Source: Brachypterus glaber
Lineage: Eukaryota; Arthropoda; Insecta; Coleoptera; Kateretidae
Reading direction: 5' to 3'
DNA: 64,000 bases
NCBI GenBank assembly: GCA_958510825.1
Contig: OY294051.1
Coordinates: 27,329,265 to 27,393,264 of the forward strand
Position numbers and translations under genes: made by a program. Of this stretch, positions 9,148 to 62,565 are shown piece after piece. The notes beneath the pieces were generated by a model. The model searched no databases, was not told the DNA's origin, and saw nothing but the letters and a program-made list of their open reading frames with translations. Numbering within the stretch: position 1 is the stretch's first letter; each line of letters begins with the position of its first letter.

Positions 9148-9288
9148 CTATAGTGCCGTTAAAGTAAAGGGCAGTAAGTGACACTTGTCGCATAGCGGCG
9201 TTTTCACGTCAACCCTGATGTAATATTTTAAAAACGCTGCTATTAACCAATGTCACTTACTGGCCTTTACTTTAATAGGGCATATTCG
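9148..9288. repeat. Foldback element, ~140 bp
   Basis: GTTAAAGTAAAGGGCAGTAA followed by GTGACA pairs with TGTCACTTACTGGCC and TTTACTTTAATAGGGC. A second inner pair is AGCGGCGTTTT with AAAACGCTGCT. Confidence 0.7.
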
Positions 9289-9500
9289 TAAAAAATTGCT
9301 TAATGATTAAATAACTTTATATTTGCAGAAAAAAATGTCAAGGAATAACAAGAAACATAAGATCTAGATCTACTTTGAAAATTTTTTTCGGATATTTCCA
9401 AAATTATGAACCCTTTTTCAAATGCATAAAAATGCATGCTTAAAAAACTGTAATAAAATTGTTTTCATAATAAATCGTGGTTCGTTATAAGTTGTATGTT

Positions 9501-9701
9501 AATTTATTATTCCATCAATCTATTTTCTAATCATCGTACAGAGTGATATTGGTAGACTGACAGTTTCGGGCTGCTGGCCCTCTTCAGTACCAAGAGTCAA
9601 CTCAGCAATATCACTCTGTACGATGATTGGAAAATAGATTGATGGAATAATAAATTAATATTTTTATAATTTTGTTTAAAATTAAAAATTTCTGTCCTTA
9701 C
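9501..9701 (-). mobile_element. F9 hammerhead-bearing insertion with 13-bp TSD
   Basis: TAAGTTGTATGTT occurs exactly at 9488-9500 and 9702-9714, framing a 201-bp insertion. The insert has one AT-rich tail (9656-9701, beginning GTAAGGACAGAAA on the minus strand) and a long palindrome (about 9501-9656) whose outer arms contain AGTGATATT and TACGATGATT. A hammerhead core sits at its centre. The TSD length and lack of coding sequence fit a non-autonomous product of target-primed reverse transcription, possibly related to Penelope-like elements. A deletion derivative is at 27464-27543. Confidence 0.8.
9549..9593 (-). ncRNA. Type I hammerhead ribozyme (minimal)
   Basis: Read on the minus strand. 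Helix I is TTGGTA (9593-9588) with TACCAA (9554-9549). The conserved CUGANGA box is CTGAAGA (9587-9581). Helix II is GGGC (9580-9577) with GCCC (9571-9568) and a CAGCA loop. GAA follows at 9567-9565. Helix III is ACT (9564-9562) with AGT (9558-9556), giving the required A15.1-U16.1 pair and a GTC loop. C17 is at 9555, the expected cleavage position. Every core nucleotide of the hammerhead consensus is present. Helix I can extend past an asymmetric internal loop into the AGTGATATT arms. The three-pair helix III matches the compact type I form known from Penelope-like retroelements. Self-cleavage itself is inferred. Confidence 0.82.
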
Positions 9702-9720
9702 TAAGTTGTATGTTGTTATA

Positions 9721-10338
9721 CAGGGTGATCATTAACTGCCATGCCAAAAATTAAGAGGTGATTCTACGTCCAAAAATATGTAAAAAAGTTTCTATAAAGG
9801 TTGGTCCAAAAATGAGCCCTAAGGGAGCTACGGCCCTTCGAATATGACATACTGAATGGGAAACAAAAAAAGGAGTAACAGTTTTTTGAAAAGTAACGTT
9901 TTTGGTGGTACAAAATGTTACTTCCACTTAATTGCATTTTTTTTTGAAAACGGTTGCTCCTACAGTGTTATATTTTTTATGTATTTTTACTCAAGGAATC
10001 CATATTTTTTATAAAAAAATCCAAAAAAATTACACATAAAAAAGTTTGGGGCAAAAATGTGTTAAGCCTAATACATTTTTCCGTCTAGGGACGCTACTGG
10101 ATAAACTCAAAAAAATAAATTAACATAAACTTATTGCCCTTATACATGCAAAAGCTCGTTGCTCTAGCTTAAAGGGCACCAGAGTTATTAATTAAAAACC
10201 TTATTTTTATTACAATTTTAAAGGGTCGTAACTCCTTTAGGGCTAATTTGCGGACCAACTTATATAGGAACTTTTTTTGATATTTTTGGATGAAAAATCA
10301 CCTCTTTAATTTTGGTATGTCAGTTATTGATCACCCTG
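9721..10338. mobile_element. F4 TIR element, copy 1
   Basis: The element starts CAGGGTGATCATTAACTG and ends CAGTTATTGATCACCCTG. It is flanked by TATA on both sides (ends of 9720 and start of 10339). The inner arms share TTGGTCCaAAAATGAGCCCT and its inverse. The tip begins six bases after the F9 target duplication. No protein is seen. Copies are at 19628-20063 and 55185-55915. Confidence 0.8.
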
Positions 10339-10372
10339 TATAACAAATATATCAAAAAGTAATACCACCTAT

Positions 10373-11026
10373 TAAGGCCAGCTTACTCCAAAAAAAACAT
10401 TTTATTTATAGTACAAAACATGTTGAGTAATCAATTTTTTTACATATGAAAGCACATATATGAAATTACTTGAAAAAAAAATTATTTTTTTTTTCAAAAT
10501 GGCGGTCCTGAAAATGGCTGCTGAAACTCATCTGATTCGTAGATGGATGACACTCTCATTTCAAAACTATTGCACTTATCGATATGAACCAAACGGTATT
10601 TTACTCTTTAGATGTCTGGCTATGGCCTTAAGCAGAACCAGAAATATTCATTATTATTTAAAAAAGTTGTAAACAATTAAAAGTGAAAAAAAAGGTAAAA
10701 AAAAATCAAAGTCCGCCATTTTGTTTTTTTTCATTGAAAATGTTTCATTCTGCTTGAGGCCATAGCCAATTCGATACAGAACATGAAACCGTTTTGTTTT
10801 TTGCTTTCAGATAATTCTTTTCCAAGAAATGATGTCATCCATCTACGAATCAGATGAGTTTCAGCAGCCATTTTCAGGACCGCCAATTTGAAAAAAAAAA
10901 AAAAATTTTTTCAAGTAATTTCATATATGTGCTTTCATATGTAAAAAAATTGATTACTCAACATGTTTTGTACTATAAATAAAATGTATTGAAAAAAATT
11001 ACGTTTTTTGGAGTAAGCTGGCCTTA
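10373..11026. mobile_element. TIR element, tips TAAGGCCAGCTTACTCC
   Basis: Arms of about 185 bp are almost perfect inverse copies: GTACAAAACATGTTGAGTAA, AAAGCACATATATGAAATTA and CTCATCTGATTCGTAGATGG each recur inverted on the right. TTAA lies at both outer ends. It could be a TTAA duplication with GGCC tips, or part of the palindrome. The core (10600-10830) contains a second inverted pair around GGCCATAGCC. Confidence 0.8.
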
Positions 11027-16428: not shown

Positions 16429-18030
16429 AAGAAAGCCGTAGCACCGCAGGTAAAAAATTTTACAACTGTCTGGTCTATTTAAATTTGAAAACAGTGGTAT
16501 AAGTTCTAACGCCATAGGCGAAAATATTGACAAATTTCAAGCTTAGGTTTTATAAAGTCCAATAAAAAAGAACGTATAAAAGCTATAGCGCCGCAGGCGA
16601 TTTTTTTTAGTAATGTTATAGTCTATTTTAATTTTAAATGTGTATTTAAAGTTTAAATGCATTTTATAAATTTTATAAATTTTATAGTCTATTTGAATTT
16701 TAGAAGTATTACTATTTAAAGTTTAAATACAAGAAAACTGTAGCGCCGCAGGCGAAAATTTTTACGAATTTCAAGCTGTAGGGTCGACTTGGAAAAGAGC
16801 CTGTATATTTGCTTCGCTTTGTGCCCTTATCGTTCTGGGGGAGTAAAAAAGCTATAGCGCCGCAGGCGATTTTTTTTAGAAATGTTATAGTCTATTTTCA
16901 TTTTAAAAGAGTATTTAAAGTTTAAATGCAACAAAACTCTAGACCGGCAGGCGAAAATTTTTACGAATTTGAAGGTGTATGGTCGACTTGGAAAAGAGCC
17001 TGCATATTTGCTTCGCTTTGTGTCCTTATCGTTCTGGCGGAGTAAAAAAGCTATAGCGCCGCAGGCGAATTTGTTTAGAAATGTTATAGTCTATTTTAAT
17101 TTTATAAGCATATTTAAAGTTTAAATGCAAAAAAAAACTCTAGCGCCGCAGCCGAAATTTTTTACGAATTTGAAGGTGTATGGTCTACTTGGAAAACAGC
17201 ATGCATATTTGCTTCGTTTTGTGCCCTTATCGTTCTGGGGGAGTAAAAAAGTTATAGCGCCGTAGGCGAATTTTTTTTAGAAATTTTTCTAGTCTATTTT
17301 AATTTTAAAAGTGTTACTATTTAAAGTTTAAATGCAAGAAAACTTTAGCGCCATGGCGAAAATTTTTACGAATTTGAATCTGTATGGTCCACTTGGAAAA
17401 CAGCGTGCATATTTGCTTCGCTTTGTGCCCTTATCCTTCTGGGGGAGTAAAAAAGCTAGTTTTATAGTCTATTTTAATTTTAAAAGTGTATTTGAAGTTT
17501 AAATGTAAGAAAACTCTAGCGCCGCAGGCGAAAATTTTTACGAATTTGAATCTGTGTGGTGCACTTGGAAAAGAGCGTGCATATTTGCTTCGTTTTGTGC
17601 CTTTATCGTTCTGGGGGAGTAAAAAAGCTATAGCGCCGCAGGCGAATTTTTTTAGAAATGTTATAGTCTATTTTAATTTTAAAAGTGTATTTAAAGTTTA
17701 AATGCAAGAAAACTCTAGCGCCGCAGGCAATTTTTTTTACGAATTTGAAGGTGTAAAAAGTCCACTTGGAAAAGAGCATGCATATATGCTTCACTTTGTG
17801 CCCTTATCATTCTGGGGGAATAAAAAAGCTCTAGCGCCGCAGGCGATTTTTTTTATAAATGTTATAGTCTATTTTAATTTTAAAAGTGTATTTAGGGTTT
17901 AAATGCAAAAAGACTGTAGCGCCGCAGGCGAAAATTTTTACGAATTTGAAGGTGTATGGTCGACTTGGAAAAGAGCCTGCATATTTGCTTCGCTTTGTGT
18001 CCTTATCGTTCTGGGGGAGTAAAAATAAAG
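16429..18030 (+). repeat. F8 satellite array, ~200-bp period
   Basis: The landmark ATATTTGCTTCG starts at 16805, 17004, 17205, 17409, 17581, 17782 (one base changed) and 17981. Spacings are 199, 201, 204, 172, 201 and 199. Each unit has two halves that both contain GCGCCGCAGGCG. One is followed by TTTTTTAGAAATGTTATAG, the other by AAAATTTTTACGAATTTGAA. Before 16800 the units are shorter and more diverged. One unit is 30 bp short. Related monomers lie inside the element at 23868-24891. Open frames here are repeat-encoded and not genes. Confidence 0.9.
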
Positions 18031-19627: not shown

Positions 19628-20063
19628 AACTACCCCCCGCCCCTTAGAGGCGTGCCTAGACGGACAAAATATGTGAGGCTTAACACATTTTTGCCCCAAA
19701 CTTTTTTATGTATATATATATATTTTATTTTTTGTAATATAGATTCCTTCAGTAAAAATACATAAAAAATGTCATATAGTGTAACACTGTAGGAATAACC
19801 GTTAAAAAAAAATCAATTAAGAGGAAGTAACATTTTGTGCCACTAAAAATTTTACTTTTTAAAAGGCTATATCTCCTTTAATATTAAATTTAGGTGTTTT
19901 GGTGAAGAATACTTTTTGTTTTTGTTCCCGATTCAATATTCAAAAGTCATCTTCGAAGGGGTCCCTTAGGGTTCATTTCCGGACCAACTTTTATTGAACT
20001 TTTTTTAATATTTAACGTAGAATCACCCCTTAAATTTATCGAACTTATTTCTAAATAACCCTG
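19628..20063 (-). mobile_element. F4 element, copy 2 (truncated, inverse)
   Basis: Matches the reverse complement of 55185-55670: GGACAAAATATGTGAGGCTT, TTTTTGCCCCAAACTTTTTT, GTAACATTTTGTGCCAC, then CATTTCCGGACCAAC and the terminal ACCCTG followed by TA. The opposite end is missing. Confidence 0.65.
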
Positions 20064-22311: not shown

Positions 22312-22950
22312 TACTCCTTATAATCAATTAAATATTTATAACCCAAAATTTATCGATATGCCTGATCTAGAACAATTAAGGTAGGTTGATATCACATAAT
22401 TATTCTGTAATTAATTAAAACTATAATAAATGTGGGAATTACATAAGTGAAAGTGCCTTGTTCCGTGCCGTTATGGGAACTTTCTCTGTTATGTGTATAT
22501 TTTTTTTTTAGCACTGCAAACCAACATTTTTACTTTTAGTGACATTTCTATGTTGCGTATATGGGTTTAATAAAATTATATGTCCAGATACTTTGTAAGA
22601 TATATTTCAAACTATGGTGAAGTTTGTTCAGGAATGGATCAAAAACATTTTTTCCAAGGTGATTTTCGAAAATAATTCTCCAAGATGCAAAAGATTCTAC
22701 AATCTTGTACAATCTCTTGAGAACATTAAAAATTAAATATAAAACTGAGTTCAGGCGTATAAAGTAATTCATTTTTTTTTAATTATAAACTTTTAGTCCC
22801 AGCATTATTAAAAAAAAAAAATAATAAAAATACGTTATTATATAGGTACTTTAAGAGCTTTCAAATGCTGATCACAAAAAATGCCCCATAAATTAAGGTC
22901 CCTAATACCGCCCTACCCTAGGTTGTTAGAGTGGGTATATTTATTTTAAC
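22312..22950. other. AT-rich stretch, no gene seen
   Basis: No recognisable protein or strong repeat before the hexanucleotide array. Confidence 0.4.
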
Positions 22951-23190
<240 letters not shown>

Positions 23191-23867
23191 TCACTCTATG
23201 AGAGAAAGAACACAATTATGTTTAAAAAATAATCCATTCATAAACAAAATAAGTTATAAGGGCGCAAGTTTTCATAAAATATAAAAAATAAGGGGAATTG
23301 TCCATATTTTTATAAAACATGTATATGATATAAATCAGAAAACATTATGTATATCAACTTGTACTGTAGTATTATCACGTTAATGTCGATTTCCCAGAAA
23401 TCAAATTGTCGCTTTGTGTTACATTTTTCTCACTATATCGTTAAACAAATATTTTAATGGCTATTACTGTTACATGGGCACACTTATTTAATTATGATAG
23501 TTTTTTGTTTACAATTAGCCTACATGATGTAGGTGACATAAATTCACTTTTTATCACACTTTCAAGTGTTTATGTTTTTGATAAATGCATTAGGAACAAT
23601 GTTTCAACTGGGTCAAAAAATTGTTAACAATTTTTAGTAAACTAATTGCTGATAAGTAGTTATGGATGGATGGTTTACCCAGTTACACTATACTCACTAA
23701 GCATTTTGTACAATAAAAATTTTACATTTAATGTTATTTTGTAAAATGAAATGTTATTTTTAACATTTCATTTAACTGGTTAAATTAAATGAATTTAATA
23801 TTAAAATTTTTAACAAATCATATTAACCCTTTCCACTTCAGCCGGTTAATCAAGGTATAGGGACTTA
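23191..23867. other. AT-rich stretch, no gene seen
   Basis: No coding signature. A short inverted pair, AAATGAAATGTTATTTTTAA with CATTTCATTT, lies at about 23745-23775. Confidence 0.4.
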
Positions 23868-26832: not shown

Positions 26833-27463
26833 ACTAGTGAGAATTAAATTTTATCTATAACTTAGCAAACAATTATGACAAAAAAGATTAACTTTTCTTA
26901 ATACGCAAAAGAGTGAGAAAAACATTTTCAGTCTCTAGAGGAAAAAACAACTTTTTATATTTAAAATAGTGCTCTTCTATGCAAAAGAGTGAGCAAAACA
27001 TTTTTTAGTCACTAGTGGAAAAAACTAACCTTTTGATATTTAAAATAGTGTTAATTAGCTAAAAACAAGTGTTTCTATGAAGGTGTTGGATAATTTTTTT
27101 TCCAAAATCAAAAGTACCAAAGTGCATTATACATATTTAAACAACTTTTAAAAATGACCGTCTATCTGTCTGTATGTCACGTTTTCTTGCCGGCGCGATG
27201 AATCAAGAAAAAATAATCCTGTCGACATCAAATATCGTTTTAAATGGGTGTTTTGGGCTAAATAAGAAAAATATGTTTTTGTTTAAAAAAGTGCAAAATG
27301 ATGAAAAGAAATGATAAAAAACAGTGTACCAAGTTTATTTTTAGTAAAGGACAAAATAATAAAAACTCGTAGGGAATTATTTGTTATCGTAAACCCGACA
27401 ACAACGCCTTATTCTTAAGCTAAATTTGACTCTTTATCATACTGAAAAAAAGTAATATTTTTT

Positions 27464-27543
27464 AAGGACAGAAATTTTTAATTTTAAACAAAATTATAAA
27501 AATATTAATTTATTATTCCATGATTAGAAAATAGATTGATGGA
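27464..27543 (+). mobile_element. F9 deletion derivative with 12-bp TSD
   Basis: GTAATATTTTTT is exact at 27452-27463 and 27544-27555. The 80-bp insert starts AAGGACAGAAATTTTTAATT. It follows the minus strand of the 9501-9701 element through ATTTATTATTCCA, then jumps to TGATTAGAAAATAGATTGATGG. About 121 bp, including the hammerhead, is absent. Confidence 0.75.
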
Positions 27544-28789
27544 GTAATATTTTTTGTTTATCTAAAAACCAACATAATAACATTTATGTAGAATGTATAA
27601 TAAAAACACTGTACAATATTAATTAAATATGCTTATTTAAGTTAAAAGTCTATGTGTAACTTTTTTATAACCTAGTTTTAAATCATATCATGGAAATAAA
27701 CTTATTAACACGTTGAAAGCTACATAAAATTATGTTGTCTGGGGCAACACTATCCCATGGAACGACATTCTTTGGTTTATTGTTGAAGCTCATGCTTACA
27801 ATGTTATTATAGTATAAATACCTTAAAAATAACTTCATAATTATGAAGTTATAATCGTACTGAAACTTAAGAAACTAGTCACATAAGTCCAGCCTAATTA
27901 CACATTGGGTTACAGCATGTTAAATCCGTAAAAACTGATAAAACACGACAAAATATTTTAATTTTAAGTCAAGAGCAGTGAACACAACACAGACCATTTT
28001 CTTTGATCCCACTTTTACAGTTACAGTTACTACAGTAGTAGTCAATGTGCAAACTTATTTTTATTTTGACGTCATGATGTAAAAAGGGCTGACATTTTAG
28101 CTAAGTTTATTTTTTATGTATCTATAATCATGTAAAGTCTTATCGTTGCAGGCGATTTAGCCCAAAATACGATACCCTCCTTTTAGAAAAAATTTATCTT
28201 GGTAAGGACATGAAGCATATTGAAATTAAAAGAAATCCATCTAAAAATAAGAAAGTTATAGGGAGCTAAACATAAAAAAAATCGAAAATAGTTGAATAAA
28301 ATCACCGATCAACTTATTTTTTTCAGGAAAAATTACGTTTATTAAAAAAATAAATCATACCAAATTTAAAAAAGTCTTACAAAAAATAAAAAATTATAGC
28401 TTAACTCAAAAGAAAAAAATAAATAAATAAATAAAAAAGAAGAAAAAGTGCGATTAAAGTTATTTTCCCAAGGGAAAAATACTTTTATCAAACGGATCAA
28501 GAAAATCTGTGATCAACTTCATTATTTTAGGAAAAATGACGCGTATTAAAATTTTAAAAATATCAATCTTATAAGATTGGTATACCAAATTTAAAGAAAG
28601 GACCAAAAACAAAAAAGTTATATACATTGATTGAAGGTAAACAAAACGTATGAAACAACCCAGCGTCTTATTAACTTCTCTGGGATGCAACATTCTAATT
28701 TAAAAATACACGGGAGTCTCCCGCAAAACGTCTTGTTGAACGCTCGTGGGTCGCCCATACATTGCGAAATATCCGGTTTATTTGCATAA

Positions 28790-40704: not shown

Positions 40705-42108
40705 GTAGTAGTAGTAGTAAATTTTTGGGTTGGCCAAAGCCGGACAACTAGGCCATTTCTGGCCCTTTTTGTCACCCCAGGCAATCTCAGCCATTTACTA
40801 ATTTGAGTCCTCCTTGAACCTGTCCGTCCTTTCAATAAAGGTCAGGATATTGGCCCAGGGGAGATCTCTTAGTTCCTCTTGGTTAAGTCTTTGAGTTTCA
40901 AAGACTTGCAACCTGATCCTGTCGTATCTGACACACTCGGCTAAGTAATGAGAGGATGTTTCATCCTCTCCGCACTCTGGACATAGCGGACTCTCTAGAA
41001 TCCGCATTGTCGCCAGGTGCTTCCTTAGCTTGCAGTGGCCCGTGAGGATCCCTACAAGTTGTCTAAGTGCAGTTCTTCCTTTTTCCAGCAACTCTTTCGT
41101 TTGCTTGGGCCAGCCAGGAAGTCCCTAGCTTGCCGGCAACCGTCGACCGCCCTCCATTGCTCCTTTAGCTTGGTATAAGCCCACTCATCGAGAGCGGTCT
41201 TTACTTGCTTCCTTGTAACACCTAATATAGGTTGCGGCCCCGTGCAGGCCATCCCTGATCCGAGTCTTGCAAGTTCATCTGCCTTCTCGTTTCCGGGAAT
41301 TCCACTATGACCCGGTACCCATACCAGTTGAACGTTTTTGGTCCTTGCTAACTCTTCCAAGGCTTCTGCACACTCCCTGACTAGGAGTGACCTAGTGCTG
41401 GGATTGCACAATGCCTTTAGAGCGGCTTGACTGTCCGAGCAGATGTATATATCGTTCCCCCAATGCTGCCTTATTTCCCTGCAATTTGCCGCTTCCTGTA
41501 TGGCATAGACCTCAGCTTGGAAGACAGTGGAAAAGCGGCCAAGTGGAAAACTCTTTTGCAAGTCCAGGTCCCCCACGAAGAGTCCTGCCCCAGAGCTTTG
41601 GATGCCTTCCATACGCGAGCCGTCTGTATAGCACACCAAAGCGTTTGGCGCAAATTGTATTTCTTTCTTTTCCCATTCCTCCTTTGTCGGAATCCTGAGA
41701 GAGAAACTTCTATCGAACTTTAATCGGTCCTCTGCTTCAATCACTCTGATACTACTAATTGGGATATCCCTTTCAGAAATATCAGCGATTTTGCCGACCG
41801 TAGTTCGCCTTCCCGGCCATCCAACTACCAGAGTCCCTAAGTCTGAGAAGCTAGCCATTGCCTTCTTCTGGATCCAGATGGAGAGTGACGGCAGTCCCAG
41901 TAGGACCTCTAGAGCAGCTTGGGGTGTTGTCCTTATTACTCCGGTGATTCCAAGACTAGCTAGTCTTTGGATTTTTCCCAGGTTCTGAGAAATTGTGGTT
42001 TTCCTAACACTAGGCCACCAGACCACTGAGCCATACTGGACTCTTGGCCTTATGACCGCTGTGTAGATCCATCTAAGGACCTTGGGTGTAACACCCCAGG
42101 TTTTTCCC
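40705..42108 (-). mobile_element. 5'-truncated LINE with 12-bp TSD
   Basis: ACATCCAAATCA is exact at 40693-40704 and 42109-42120. On the minus strand the insert starts within the RT thumb (GGGAAAAACCTGGGG) and ends with a TAC-repeat tail (about five units, 40705-40720 on the plus strand). A 3' end in a short tandem repeat and a 12-bp duplication fit target-primed insertion. RNase H plus a C-terminal zinc knuckle points to the I/LOA/R1-like group of LINEs. Confidence 0.9.
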
Positions 42109-42117
42109 ACATCCAAA
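40798..42117 (-). pseudogene. LINE ORF2 C-terminus: RT thumb, RNase H, CCHC
   Basis: The first frame (ending 41052) has an RT thumb with KVLRWIYTAVIRPRVQYGSV and WWPSV, then IQRLASLGITGVIRTTP. RNase H follows with YTDGS, FQAEVYAIQEA, ICSDSQAA, WVPGHSGIPGNEKADELA. Counting from the frame's first Met at 42143, the catalytic D174, E211, D237 and D289 and H279 are all present. A frameshift near 41060-41090 moves the rest to another frame. There LVGILTGHCKLRKHL leads to a C-x2-C-x7-H-x4-C zinc knuckle (CPECGEDE to HYLAEC) and a stop at 40798. The first 8-9 residues of the open frame (to 42120) are target DNA, not LINE. Endonuclease, fingers and palm are missing, so the copy is dead despite an intact RNase H site. 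Confidence 0.9.
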
Positions 42118-42120
42118 TCA

Positions 42121-42408
42121 AGTTTCAGTGTAAAATTTATCATTCAGAGTACAAATTTTACACCCAAGAAATCATTTACAGGTATGCAGCTCGCTCAAAT
42201 CTCAGTAAATTAAATTTTTAAAGTTAGCTCATAAAAATCTAAGGTTTTTTTTGTACGAAACTATGAAATTTGTTTAAAAACAAACACCATCAATTTTTAC
42301 CCTTTTTGGCCGAGACCTCTCAAGGTCATCCCACTGTGCATTCCTTTGACGTGGTTATTTGAATTCATGTTTTAAGGAAAACCCAAGGTTTTAAAATAGT
42401 TATTGATA
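42121..42408. other. No gene seen
   Basis: Target-side DNA of the LINE insertion. TAAAATTTATCATTCAGAGT and ACAAATTTTACACCCAAGAA may be an inverse relative of 40575-40610, so the LINE may have hit an older TIR element. Confidence 0.35.
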
Positions 42409-54468: not shown

Positions 54469-55184
54469 AACAAGTTTTGACAACGGTAGATAATATGTAA
54501 GCTAGCACTTAATTAGGTAGTAAAAAAAGTTTTTAGCGATTTAGTCACTCATTAGATATAATTCGAATCGATGTATAATAGGTTTTCACAAACAATAATA
54601 TTTTTAAAAACCTATTTATTATAGGTATTCTTCACAGCACTAAGCGTTAGAAAAGTATAATACCTACGATACACGGTGGGGATGATTTCAAATCTAGCAG
54701 GACAAAAATAGCAAAACCAACTTTTAAATAAACGGATTAAAGTATTATTACCTGAAAACGAACTGTTTAAAGTTTAATAAAATGACTAAAAAAAGCCCTT
54801 GGATATTACATGTTTATATTTTTATAGAGCCTAAAGTCGACATATAAGCAAGTAAAAAAAAACTGTTTTTGTTGGCTGCATTAAGTGGTACAGAACGGAT
54901 GTTTTAAAGTACTATTAAGTTTTGTGTTTTATACATTATTAAGATCAACGTATGTACTTTAAATCGCTAGCTTTATTTTTTTTTTAACGAAATTATTTTA
55001 AATTTGATATTAACTTTTATTTTACTTGACAAATGTATCAATTTATTTTATTTTGTTTGGTCTAAAATTTGATTCATCTTGATTCTGGTAATAAATTTTT
55101 AACTCTCGAATAGCTTATTTTTAACTGTATAAAACCATAGTAAATTTGGCCGCATAAAGCTGCATATTTTTTTACATGCTTATA
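54469..55184. other. AT-rich stretch, no gene seen
   Basis: TTGGCTGCATTAAGTGGTAC at 54873 recalls the first bases of the window. No coding signature. Confidence 0.4.
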
Positions 55185-55915
55185 CAGCCTGTTCCAGAAC
55201 TCGCGTACCGAAATTTAAGAGGTGATTCTACATCCAAAAATATGAAAAAAAGTTTCTATAAAGGTTGGTCCGGAAATGAGCCCTAAGGGAGCTACGGTCC
55301 TTCGAAGATGACGTATTGAATGGGGAACAAAAAAAAGCACCAATAAAATTTTAATGCTGCAGGGTGATTCTTCATTTAAAACAGACCAAAAAAGTATTAT
55401 ACACCAAAACACCTAAATTTAATATTAAAGGAGTAATAGCCTTTTAAAAAGTAACGTTTTTGGTGGCACAAAATGTTACTTCCTCTTAATTGCATTTTTT
55501 TTGATAACGGTTGCTCCTACAGTGTTACACTATATGATATATTATATGTATTTTTACTCTAGAAATCTATATTTTTTACAACAAATCCAAAAAACATACA
55601 CATAGAAAAGTTTGGGGCAAAAATGTTTTAAGCCTCATATATTTTGTCCGTCTGGGCACGCCTCTGGATAAATTAAAAAAATAAATTAACATAAACTTAT
55701 TGCCCTTATTAATACTAGTATACATGCAAAAGCTCGCCGCTCTAGCTTAAACGGTACCCGAGTTATTAATTAAAAACCTTATTTTTATTAAAATTTTAAA
55801 GGGCCCTAGATCCCTTAGGGCTCATTTCCGGACCAACCTTTATAGGAACTTTTTTTATATTTTTGGATCTAGAATCACCTCTTAAATTTTGGCATGCCAG
55901 TTATGGATCACCCTG
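55185..55915. mobile_element. F4 TIR element, copy 3
   Basis: Left CAGCCTGTTCC (decayed tip), then TTTAAGAGGTGATTCTACAT, TTTCTATAAAGGTTGGTCCG and ATGAGCCCTAAGGGAGCTAC. The right half has the inverse of these and ends ATGGATCACCCTG before TA. It is longer than copy 1 because of an extra central block that is also present in copy 2. Confidence 0.8.
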
Positions 55916-55984
55916 TATTATATATGTGTGTTCGAGCAAAAACATTTGTGTTGATATATATTTTAAATTTATGCTTTAACATCG

Positions 55985-62023: not shown

Positions 62024-62565
62024 GGGGTACAAGCTAGGGTCACTACATATGGGCGTATTTCGTTCCTTGGTTTGGACTATCATGGTCCTATCCATGGCGC
62101 AGACCACTTTTATTTTTTGTGGGCCTGTGTTATTAGTAGGTAATTATAAAATAAATATTATGTTTACTGGAGACCGGTAAGATTAGCGGTACAAACTAGG
62201 GTCACTACATCTGGGCGTATTTCGTTCCTTGGTTCGGATTATCATGGTCCTATCCATGGCGCAGCCAACGTTTATTTTTTGTGGCCTGTGTTATTAGTAG
62301 GTAATTATAAAATAAATACTATGTTTACTGGAGACCGGTAAGATTAGGGGTATAAACTAGGGTCACTACATATGGGCGTATTTCGTTCCTTGGTTTGGAC
62401 TATCATGGTCCTATCCATGGCGCAGACCACTTTTATTTTTTGTGGGCCTGTGTTATTAGTAGGTAATTATAAATAAATAAATATTATGTTTACTGGAGAC
62501 CGGTAAGATTAGGGGTCCAAACTAAGGTCACTACATATGGGCGTATTTCGTTCCTTGGTTCTTGC
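62024..62565 (+). repeat. F2-derived tandem array, ~162-bp period
   Basis: GGGTCACTACAT starts at 62037, 62199 and 62360, with a fourth variant at about 62525 (spacings 162, 161, 165). Each full unit holds CGTATTTCGTTCCTTGGTT, a GGTCCTATCCATGGCGCAG block, TTTATTTTTTGTGGGCCTGT with GTTATTAGTAGG, and GTTTACTGGAGACCGGTAAG. The TTTTTGTGGGCCTGTGTTAT stretch is the F2 tip. The array starts at the gap, so its true length is unknown. Confidence 0.9.

Follow-up and report, generated by a model that had tools for sequence, protein, structure and literature searches.

Probable Penelope-Type Insertion of a Short Hammerhead Retrozyme in the Beetle Brachypterus glaber

Introduction

Penelope elements or LINEs are named in the literature as candidates for moving the retrozymes of animals. 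In the available parts of three papers (PMC7229834, PMC7761336, PMC11722881), Penelope elements are proposed as retrozyme helpers, while Cervera and de la Pena 2020 (PMC7229834) names LINEs or Penelope elements merely as candidates. According to the accessible text of a lizard study (PMC11167929), the Penelope protein acts in vitro on both strands, which it cuts and extends, and uses two internal start sites; the main start lies 111–118 nt into the ORF, and the hammerhead cut at ORF +26. Subtraction of these published figures, made here, gives a cut-to-start distance of approximately 85–92 nt. The same text describes start sites that are alike on both strands and ribozyme mutants without effect on insertion (PMC11167929), and we count both against the Penelope route proposed below. 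For a rotifer Penelope element, the available text of PMC3846280 describes an inverted leader to which a 31-bp tail may be attached, and gives 8–10 bp as the length of the duplications at several insertions. We compare with these systems an insert that was detected in a window of Brachypterus glaber DNA, by which we mean the whole stretch of 64,000 nucleotides that was analysed, and the family of repeats to which this insert belongs.

Results

Structure of the Window Insert

The insert consists of two retrozyme pieces joined head to head and lies between exact 13-bp direct repeats (Table 1). Unit positions are numbered from the first nucleotide 3' of the cleavage site on the hammerhead strand (+1). 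The left part of the insert covers approximately −51 to +54; its right part has the opposite orientation and covers +4 to +97/+99. The two parts differ over +4 to +54 by a single mismatch, at +27, and the arms (9496–9551/9606–9661) are 96% complementary. The palindrome and the one-sided tail of the insert are explained by its origin as the 5'-truncated product of joining two cDNAs head to head. The insert is a truncated copy of a 354-nt tandem retrozyme unit and no free-standing element. The first-pass annotation had described a palindromic body with one AT tail between 13-bp target-site duplications, which agrees with the structure found here; its proposal that the 201-bp insert is itself the mobile unit is superseded by the 354-nt unit of the family, which often stands in tandem.

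A second, ribozyme-less copy in the window shares its +27 base in the left arm with the first one. Palindromy inherited through this common base was considered and rejected; the simpler reading is that the +27 mismatch of the first copy is a later change in its right arm. A stop of the right-hand cDNA just past the cleavage site (+4 in the first copy) was also rejected as a general rule, since inner ends scatter among the inserts.

Table 1. Positions of the retrozyme features in the window.
Feature	Position	Strand	Remarks
Type I hammerhead motif	9549..9593	-	predicted cleavage between 9555 and 9554; descriptor, Rfam, phage model, Markov control
Left 13-bp target-site duplication TAAGTTGTATGTT	9488..9500	.	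exact repeat
Right 13-bp target-site duplication TAAGTTGTATGTT	9702..9714	.	exact repeat
Insert, two retrozyme pieces head to head	9501..9701	.	201 bp
No-tail piece	9501..9605	-	approximately unit position 302 via 354 to +54; outer end approximately +54..+56
Tail-bearing piece	9606..9701	+	unit +4..+99; outer end approximately +97..+99
AT-rich tail, 43 nt (+55..+97)	9657..9699	+	at one end only
Second copy, 79 bp, ribozyme-less	27464..27542	-	pieces +22..+43 (inverted) and +41..+97 (tail)
13-bp target-site duplication AAAAAATATTACT of second copy	27543..27555	-	exact repeat
Other 13-bp duplication AAAAAATATTACT of second copy	27451..27463	-	exact repeat

Other repeats were seen in the window. 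A repeat beside the insert (9717–10400) has inverted arms at 9759–9851/10208–10300 (78%) and further copies at 55181–55918 and 19650–20037 (approximately 85% and 70% identity); it looks like a short inverted-repeat element. Another small element is perhaps represented by a 30-nt inverted repeat at 9159–9275, with 90% complementarity and a loop of 57 nt. At 22950–23192, the hexamer of a (CTCCGT)n array is repeated approximately 40 times with 99% matches, and tandem repeats are located at 16671–18025 (approximately 199 bp) and 62024–62561 (approximately 161 bp). A stop-free frame of 363 aa at 41055–42143 contains an RNase H domain, to which beetle retroelement proteins are nearest; the best matches among named proteins are from the beetles Callosobruchus, Exocentrus, and Molorchus.

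The Hammerhead Motif

The type I hammerhead core is complete in the motif of the insert (CTGAAGA, GAA, the A15.1–U16.1 pair, and C17), which has 6, 4, and 3 pairs in helices I, II, and III, of which II and III are closed by loops. Its minus-strand letters are TTGGTA CTGAAGA GGGC-CAGCA-GCCC GAA ACT-GTC-AGT C TACCAA. With minima of 4, 3, and 3 pairs, a search of both strands of the window with the hammerhead descriptor matched at this site alone; the complete type I motif that the first-pass annotation had claimed is borne out. Markov sequence of the same composition as the window (192 Mb) contained no motif this strong and two looser ones. We also built a covariance model from 32 natural phage type I hammerheads, hand-picked from 77 distinct listed motifs (one blank), most of which have a short helix III. 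The motif was the top match of this model in the window (18.6 bits, rough E of 6.5e-4), followed by a site without helices II and III (16.5 bits, rough E of 0.0038).

A covariance-model match above threshold, to which the first-pass annotation had looked, was not obtained from Rfam, as no family reached its gathering score anywhere in the window. For positions 9400–9800, 14 weak matches with E up to 10 included no hammerhead; the lowest E (0.058) belonged to RT-3 RNA on the plus strand, below gathering. A 63-nt stretch gave a single match, RAGATH-1-hammerhead, at the same place and on the same strand as the motif (17.3 bits, E of 0.37); the gathering score of this family is 56.3. A phage hammerhead sharing the CUGAAGA core likewise remained below this gathering score, with 27.4 bits against 56.3, and was also left unreported by the phage-built covariance model. 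Since a phage hammerhead with the same core fails as well, the failure of the window motif is weak counter-evidence, and we treat it as a limit of the model and not as a defining failure.

Fold energies, which exclude tertiary contacts, were less favourable for the hammerhead fold than for the favoured fold: −8.2 versus −14.6 kcal/mol for the 45-mer (6.4 worse), −77.2 versus −85.6 kcal/mol for the full insert (8.4 worse), and −86.2 versus −92.5 kcal/mol for a circle of the 354-nt unit (6.3 worse). Helix I goes on past an internal bulge in the constrained folds. As far as sequence can tell, the hammerhead motif of the window is confirmed as real. The pattern of core plus helix III had no match in the viral_contigs collection, nor did the exact tail and arm patterns in the viral_contigs and genome_contigs collections. 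Three hammerhead matches were seen on a 5-kb viral contig, L001 (460–521, 1853–1908, and 2319–2379), one of them with a CUGAAGA core.

The Retrozyme Family in the Genome

The exact 32-nt core occurs 2835 times (1461 + 1374) in the genome of 648,179,424 bases in 842 contigs, in keeping with the first-pass expectation of further copies with a conserved core; the same pattern read backwards occurs 0 times. Measured from cut to cut, the unit has 354 nt and a GC content of 0.362. The longest stop-free run over three concatenated units is 65 aa, and no ORF for a reverse transcriptase or a GIY-YIG protein was found in the unit, consistent with the lack of coding capacity noted earlier. Two queries of the genome were used, one with the element (98 matches; 40 of 493 candidates scored) and one with the 354-nt unit (157 matches; 40 of 667 candidates scored), of which the latter revealed exact 354-bp unit steps at many places. 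The family thus combines the properties of metazoan non-LTR retrozymes, namely non-coding tandem repeats of 150–450 bp that each carry a type I hammerhead, low GC (0.362), and duplications of more than 4 bp (modes of 12–13 bp). By its unit, the window family is a non-autonomous, animal-type (non-LTR) retrozyme.

The first sample contained 64 hammerhead motifs across 37 of 41 inserts. Sixty-one of these motifs are 45 nt long; the core is intact in 52 of them, and 39 retain both the core and all 13 pairs. Divergence was 2.4% in the core versus 3.6% in the rest, a difference too small for a selection argument.

Continuous arrays were also found. At C2:9911515–9914801, nine full units alternate strictly between two haplotypes (A B A B A B A B A), where B differs at positions 157 and 254 and no unit carries a private change; around this single-oriented array, a flanking duplication of at least 9 bp was sought and not found. 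Such alternation would follow from one-step rolling of a dimeric RNA circle, or from expansion of a DNA dimer. In another array of approximately five units (L172, 756–2626), two haplotypes are mixed in a loose order, which suggests template switching. An insert at L161 contains a 351-nt piece that leads from +56 through one full turn of the unit to +61, next to an opposed piece of 45 nt, and has a 12-bp repeat. At L132 (1557–2289), direct units of approximately 274 nt (step of 281) are joined such that unit position 137 follows +56 after a gap of 7 nt, which looks like a restart of reverse transcription at the no-tail site inside the array.

Ends and Junctions of the Inserts

We classified 61 inserts. 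The element query supplied 41 of them, namely 40 places in the genome, with the window insert included, and the second copy in the window; the 30 loci of the unit query added 20 more. The inserts were chosen by similarity, and further arrays from the unit query lie outside this set. Forty-three of the 61 are head to head with one tail-site end and one no-tail-site end (31 of the 41 element-query and 12 of the 20 unit-query inserts). The exceptions comprise two tail/tail inserts, two no-tail/no-tail inserts (L175 and L183), four head-to-head inserts that end elsewhere, and ten single-oriented ones; of the tail/tail pair, L130 has flanks that look inverted by eye and L131 is a diverged copy. L126 and L127 have common flanks and represent one event. 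When L127 is left out, 42 of 46 classified inserts with two ends are discordant, giving p = 2.6e-9 against an independent choice at 0.5. Tail ends fall at +96 to +100 in 41 of 50 cases, with a mode of +98, and no-tail ends at +50 to +57 in 47 of 55, positions that spread somewhat as AT-rich flanks match by chance.

The first-pass annotation had envisaged flanking duplications at other copies. Exact flanking repeats of at least 11 bp were found for 28 of the 42 tail/no-tail inserts, versus 8 of 1722 mismatched flank pairs, and for 2 of the 18 inserts outside this class; the length modes of the direct repeats are 12 and 13 bp. The pieces range from tens of nt to more than 3 kb of one 354-nt unit, and the two pieces of an insert overlap in unit sequence in many inserts. 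Among 50 opposed inner junctions, 10 share at least 10 nt and 21 share at least 3, where random joining would give 0.035% and 6.3%, respectively, the observed overlaps being BLAST matches with possible mismatches and the random ones exact. Seven of the 10 long overlaps pair unit positions of approximately 287–303 with the complementary stretch at approximately +11 to +27, which form the outer helix I stem in the constrained circular fold. From this structure, two cDNAs of the same polarity often appear to be joined at self-complementary sequence of the element.

The Co-Resident Penelope Element

A GIY-YIG search of the genome gave 31 matches (150 of 419 candidates scored). One locus, L204, is a Penelope tandem repeat with a step of 3,000 bp and an ORF that is seemingly broken by a frame change; its long frame matches RVT_1 (7.7e-10) and GIY-YIG (1.3e-5). 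The leader/ORF junction of this repeat contains a hammerhead-like motif, GCC-TTGAAGA-stem-loop-GAAACTAGTC-GGC, in which C3 is replaced by U and helix III is minimal. The phage-hammerhead model gave no full match on L204 (lowest E of 0.5), and the descriptor found no hammerhead in 1.3–1.5 kb stretches that include and follow five other GIY-YIG copies (L205–L208 and L210).

A search with the Penelope leader yielded 44 matches (40 of 165 candidates scored). Among those listed, 35 end at +85 to +97, and +88 is the exact end of 19 of these; no-tail ends were seen twice each at +56 and +60, a count that is too low since the ranking favours long, tail-bearing matches. The remaining ones listed comprise two that run through, one that ends at +68, and two internal pieces. 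All four opposed neighbouring pairs in this listing combine one tail end with one no-tail end. Three Penelope inserts were fetched, two of which have an exact 13-bp duplication. For the third, the script found an 8-bp repeat only (its boundary was misplaced by a third match), and its flanks contain a longer common AT-rich repeat when inspected by eye.

Between retrozyme and Penelope leader, no homology was found past AT-rich stretches, and the alignment score was below the shuffle means. An 8-mer that both share at the no-tail site was also present in 227 of 5000 block shuffles. Common to the two are the no-tail distance of approximately +55, the 13-bp stagger, and the head-to-head form; their tail distances are similar (+97 for the retrozyme versus +88 for Penelope, approximately 9 nt apart). 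The retrozyme inserts hence exhibit the features of a Penelope-type insertion, that is, two fixed ends separated by the tail, the head-to-head form, and a duplication.

Discussion

The similar ends, stagger, and head-to-head form, taken together with the Penelope biology and helper proposals cited above, lead us to conclude that, very probably, the window insert is a short copy of a retrozyme of the non-autonomous animal type, whose unit has 354 nt and which is inserted by Penelope-type machinery. The first-pass suggestion of a Penelope relative therefore stands for the insertion mode (ends, stagger, and head-to-head form) and fails for the sequence, with no homology beyond AT-rich stretches; its overall interpretation is partly supported. 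The route would begin with transcription of tandem retrozyme units, whose hammerheads may cut the transcripts to 354-nt monomers, some or all of which may be circularised. A Penelope GIY-YIG/RT protein, which we infer to be the acting enzyme, would cut both target strands approximately 13 bp apart, leaving the duplications that are observed. Each target end would then prime reverse transcription at approximately +55 or +97, where the ends are observed, normally with one priming of each site per insertion and presumably one site per target strand. The two cDNAs would stop at variable inner points and then join, partly via self-complementary stretches, for example the helix I stem; the product would be the head-to-head palindrome with one tail that is seen as structure. 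Continuous multi-unit runs would be made either on an RNA circle that is copied for several turns or on tandem transcripts. Counted against this route are the 18 of 61 inserts without the full pattern, of which 2 have a repeat of at least 11 bp, the 14 of 42 patterned ones without such a repeat, the lack of homology to the Penelope leader, the offset of approximately 9 nt between the tail ends, and the choice of the inserts by similarity.

Other explanations were weighed against Penelope-type insertion. A chance resemblance to a hammerhead within a palindrome would suit a motif that lies under every Rfam gathering score and for which the alternative fold is favoured over the hammerhead by 6 to 8 kcal/mol, but such motifs numbered 0 per 192 Mb of matched random sequence, the independent phage-built model places this one at the top, and the core is intact in 52 of 61 full-length motifs, so that we give this explanation practically no weight. 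Scarcely more credible is the reading that the 201-bp palindrome moves in its own right, as a SINE- or MITE-like fold-back family. In its favour, the two window copies have the tail end in common and are both head to head; against it, the inner junctions vary between inserts, the pieces extend from tens of nt to more than 3 kb, and a 13-bp duplication with unlike ends misfits a DNA transposon. A DNA transposon as such was ruled out on the same two features, and a plain tandem retrozyme insertion was rejected since it leaves the inverted arm unexplained.

Insertion by a LINE through target-primed reverse transcription, with the head-to-head form produced by twin priming (5' inversion), appears improbable, though less so than the preceding two. 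LINE insertions too have direct repeats that differ in length and inner ends that vary, and a retroelement RNase H fragment is present in the window (41055–42143). Twin priming would, however, make the outer end of the inverted piece variable, whereas the second outer end is fixed here (+50 to +57 in 47 of 55); moreover, the two pieces of an insert often overlap in unit sequence, and the Penelope of the same genome shows similar ends, the head-to-head form, and 13-bp duplications in two of three inserts. A circle-free variant is compatible with Penelope-type insertion and comes close to an even chance, falling slightly short of it: a Penelope-moved retrozyme would form its long arrays from linear multimeric transcripts or by DNA expansion. 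Tandem transcripts can template continuous multi-unit pieces, and an ABAB array can come from dimer expansion; against this, the once-round piece of 351 nt (+56 to +61) at L161 is the expected copy of one turn of a circle, and the nine-unit array alternates two haplotypes strictly without a private change.

Within the preferred Penelope-type route, we tentatively propose, leaning somewhat against it ourselves, that one Penelope complex performs two obligatorily different primings per insertion, at the tail site on one strand and at the no-tail site on the other, both at set distances from the hammerhead. Since the foreign RNA has no sequence homology to the helper, its recognition would rest on the position and shape of the hammerhead. 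The template may be an RNA circle, even a dimeric one, rolled repeatedly; the nine-unit alternating array suggests a dimeric circle that was rolled several times. Thousands of exact cores beside a similarly inserting Penelope make the helper question testable in one species, and the paired tail/no-tail rule is a constraint on the unsettled insertion mechanism of Penelope.

Compared with known systems, the plant LTR retrozymes (PMC4918200), as described in the available text of PMC7229834, are likewise non-autonomous, hammerhead-bearing, and spread through RNA circles, but they have type III hammerheads, LTRs, and 4-bp duplications. The W-elements/SM-alpha of Schistosoma also consist of repetitive hammerhead units with a possible target-site duplication, but are satellite-like and mostly linked to the W chromosome, and head-to-head tail/no-tail inserts are not described in the accessible part of PMC8490949. 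No report of paired tail/no-tail ends for retrozymes was found in the accessible open-licence PMC literature. As far as the available texts on Penelope/Poseidon go (PMC11167929, PMC3846280), these elements share with our family a hammerhead near the start of reverse transcription, two start sites split by the tail, and head-to-head leaders with the tail on one, whereas the retrozyme has no reverse transcriptase, endonuclease, or detected homology and possesses a helix III of 3 pairs with a complete core. The metazoan non-LTR retrozymes, in the accessible description of PMC7229834, are alike in their short tandem units, each copy of which has a type I hammerhead, and in low GC, many copies, and duplications of more than 4 bp, and the present family differs from them in its mostly head-to-head tail/no-tail pairs with a stagger of approximately 13 bp.
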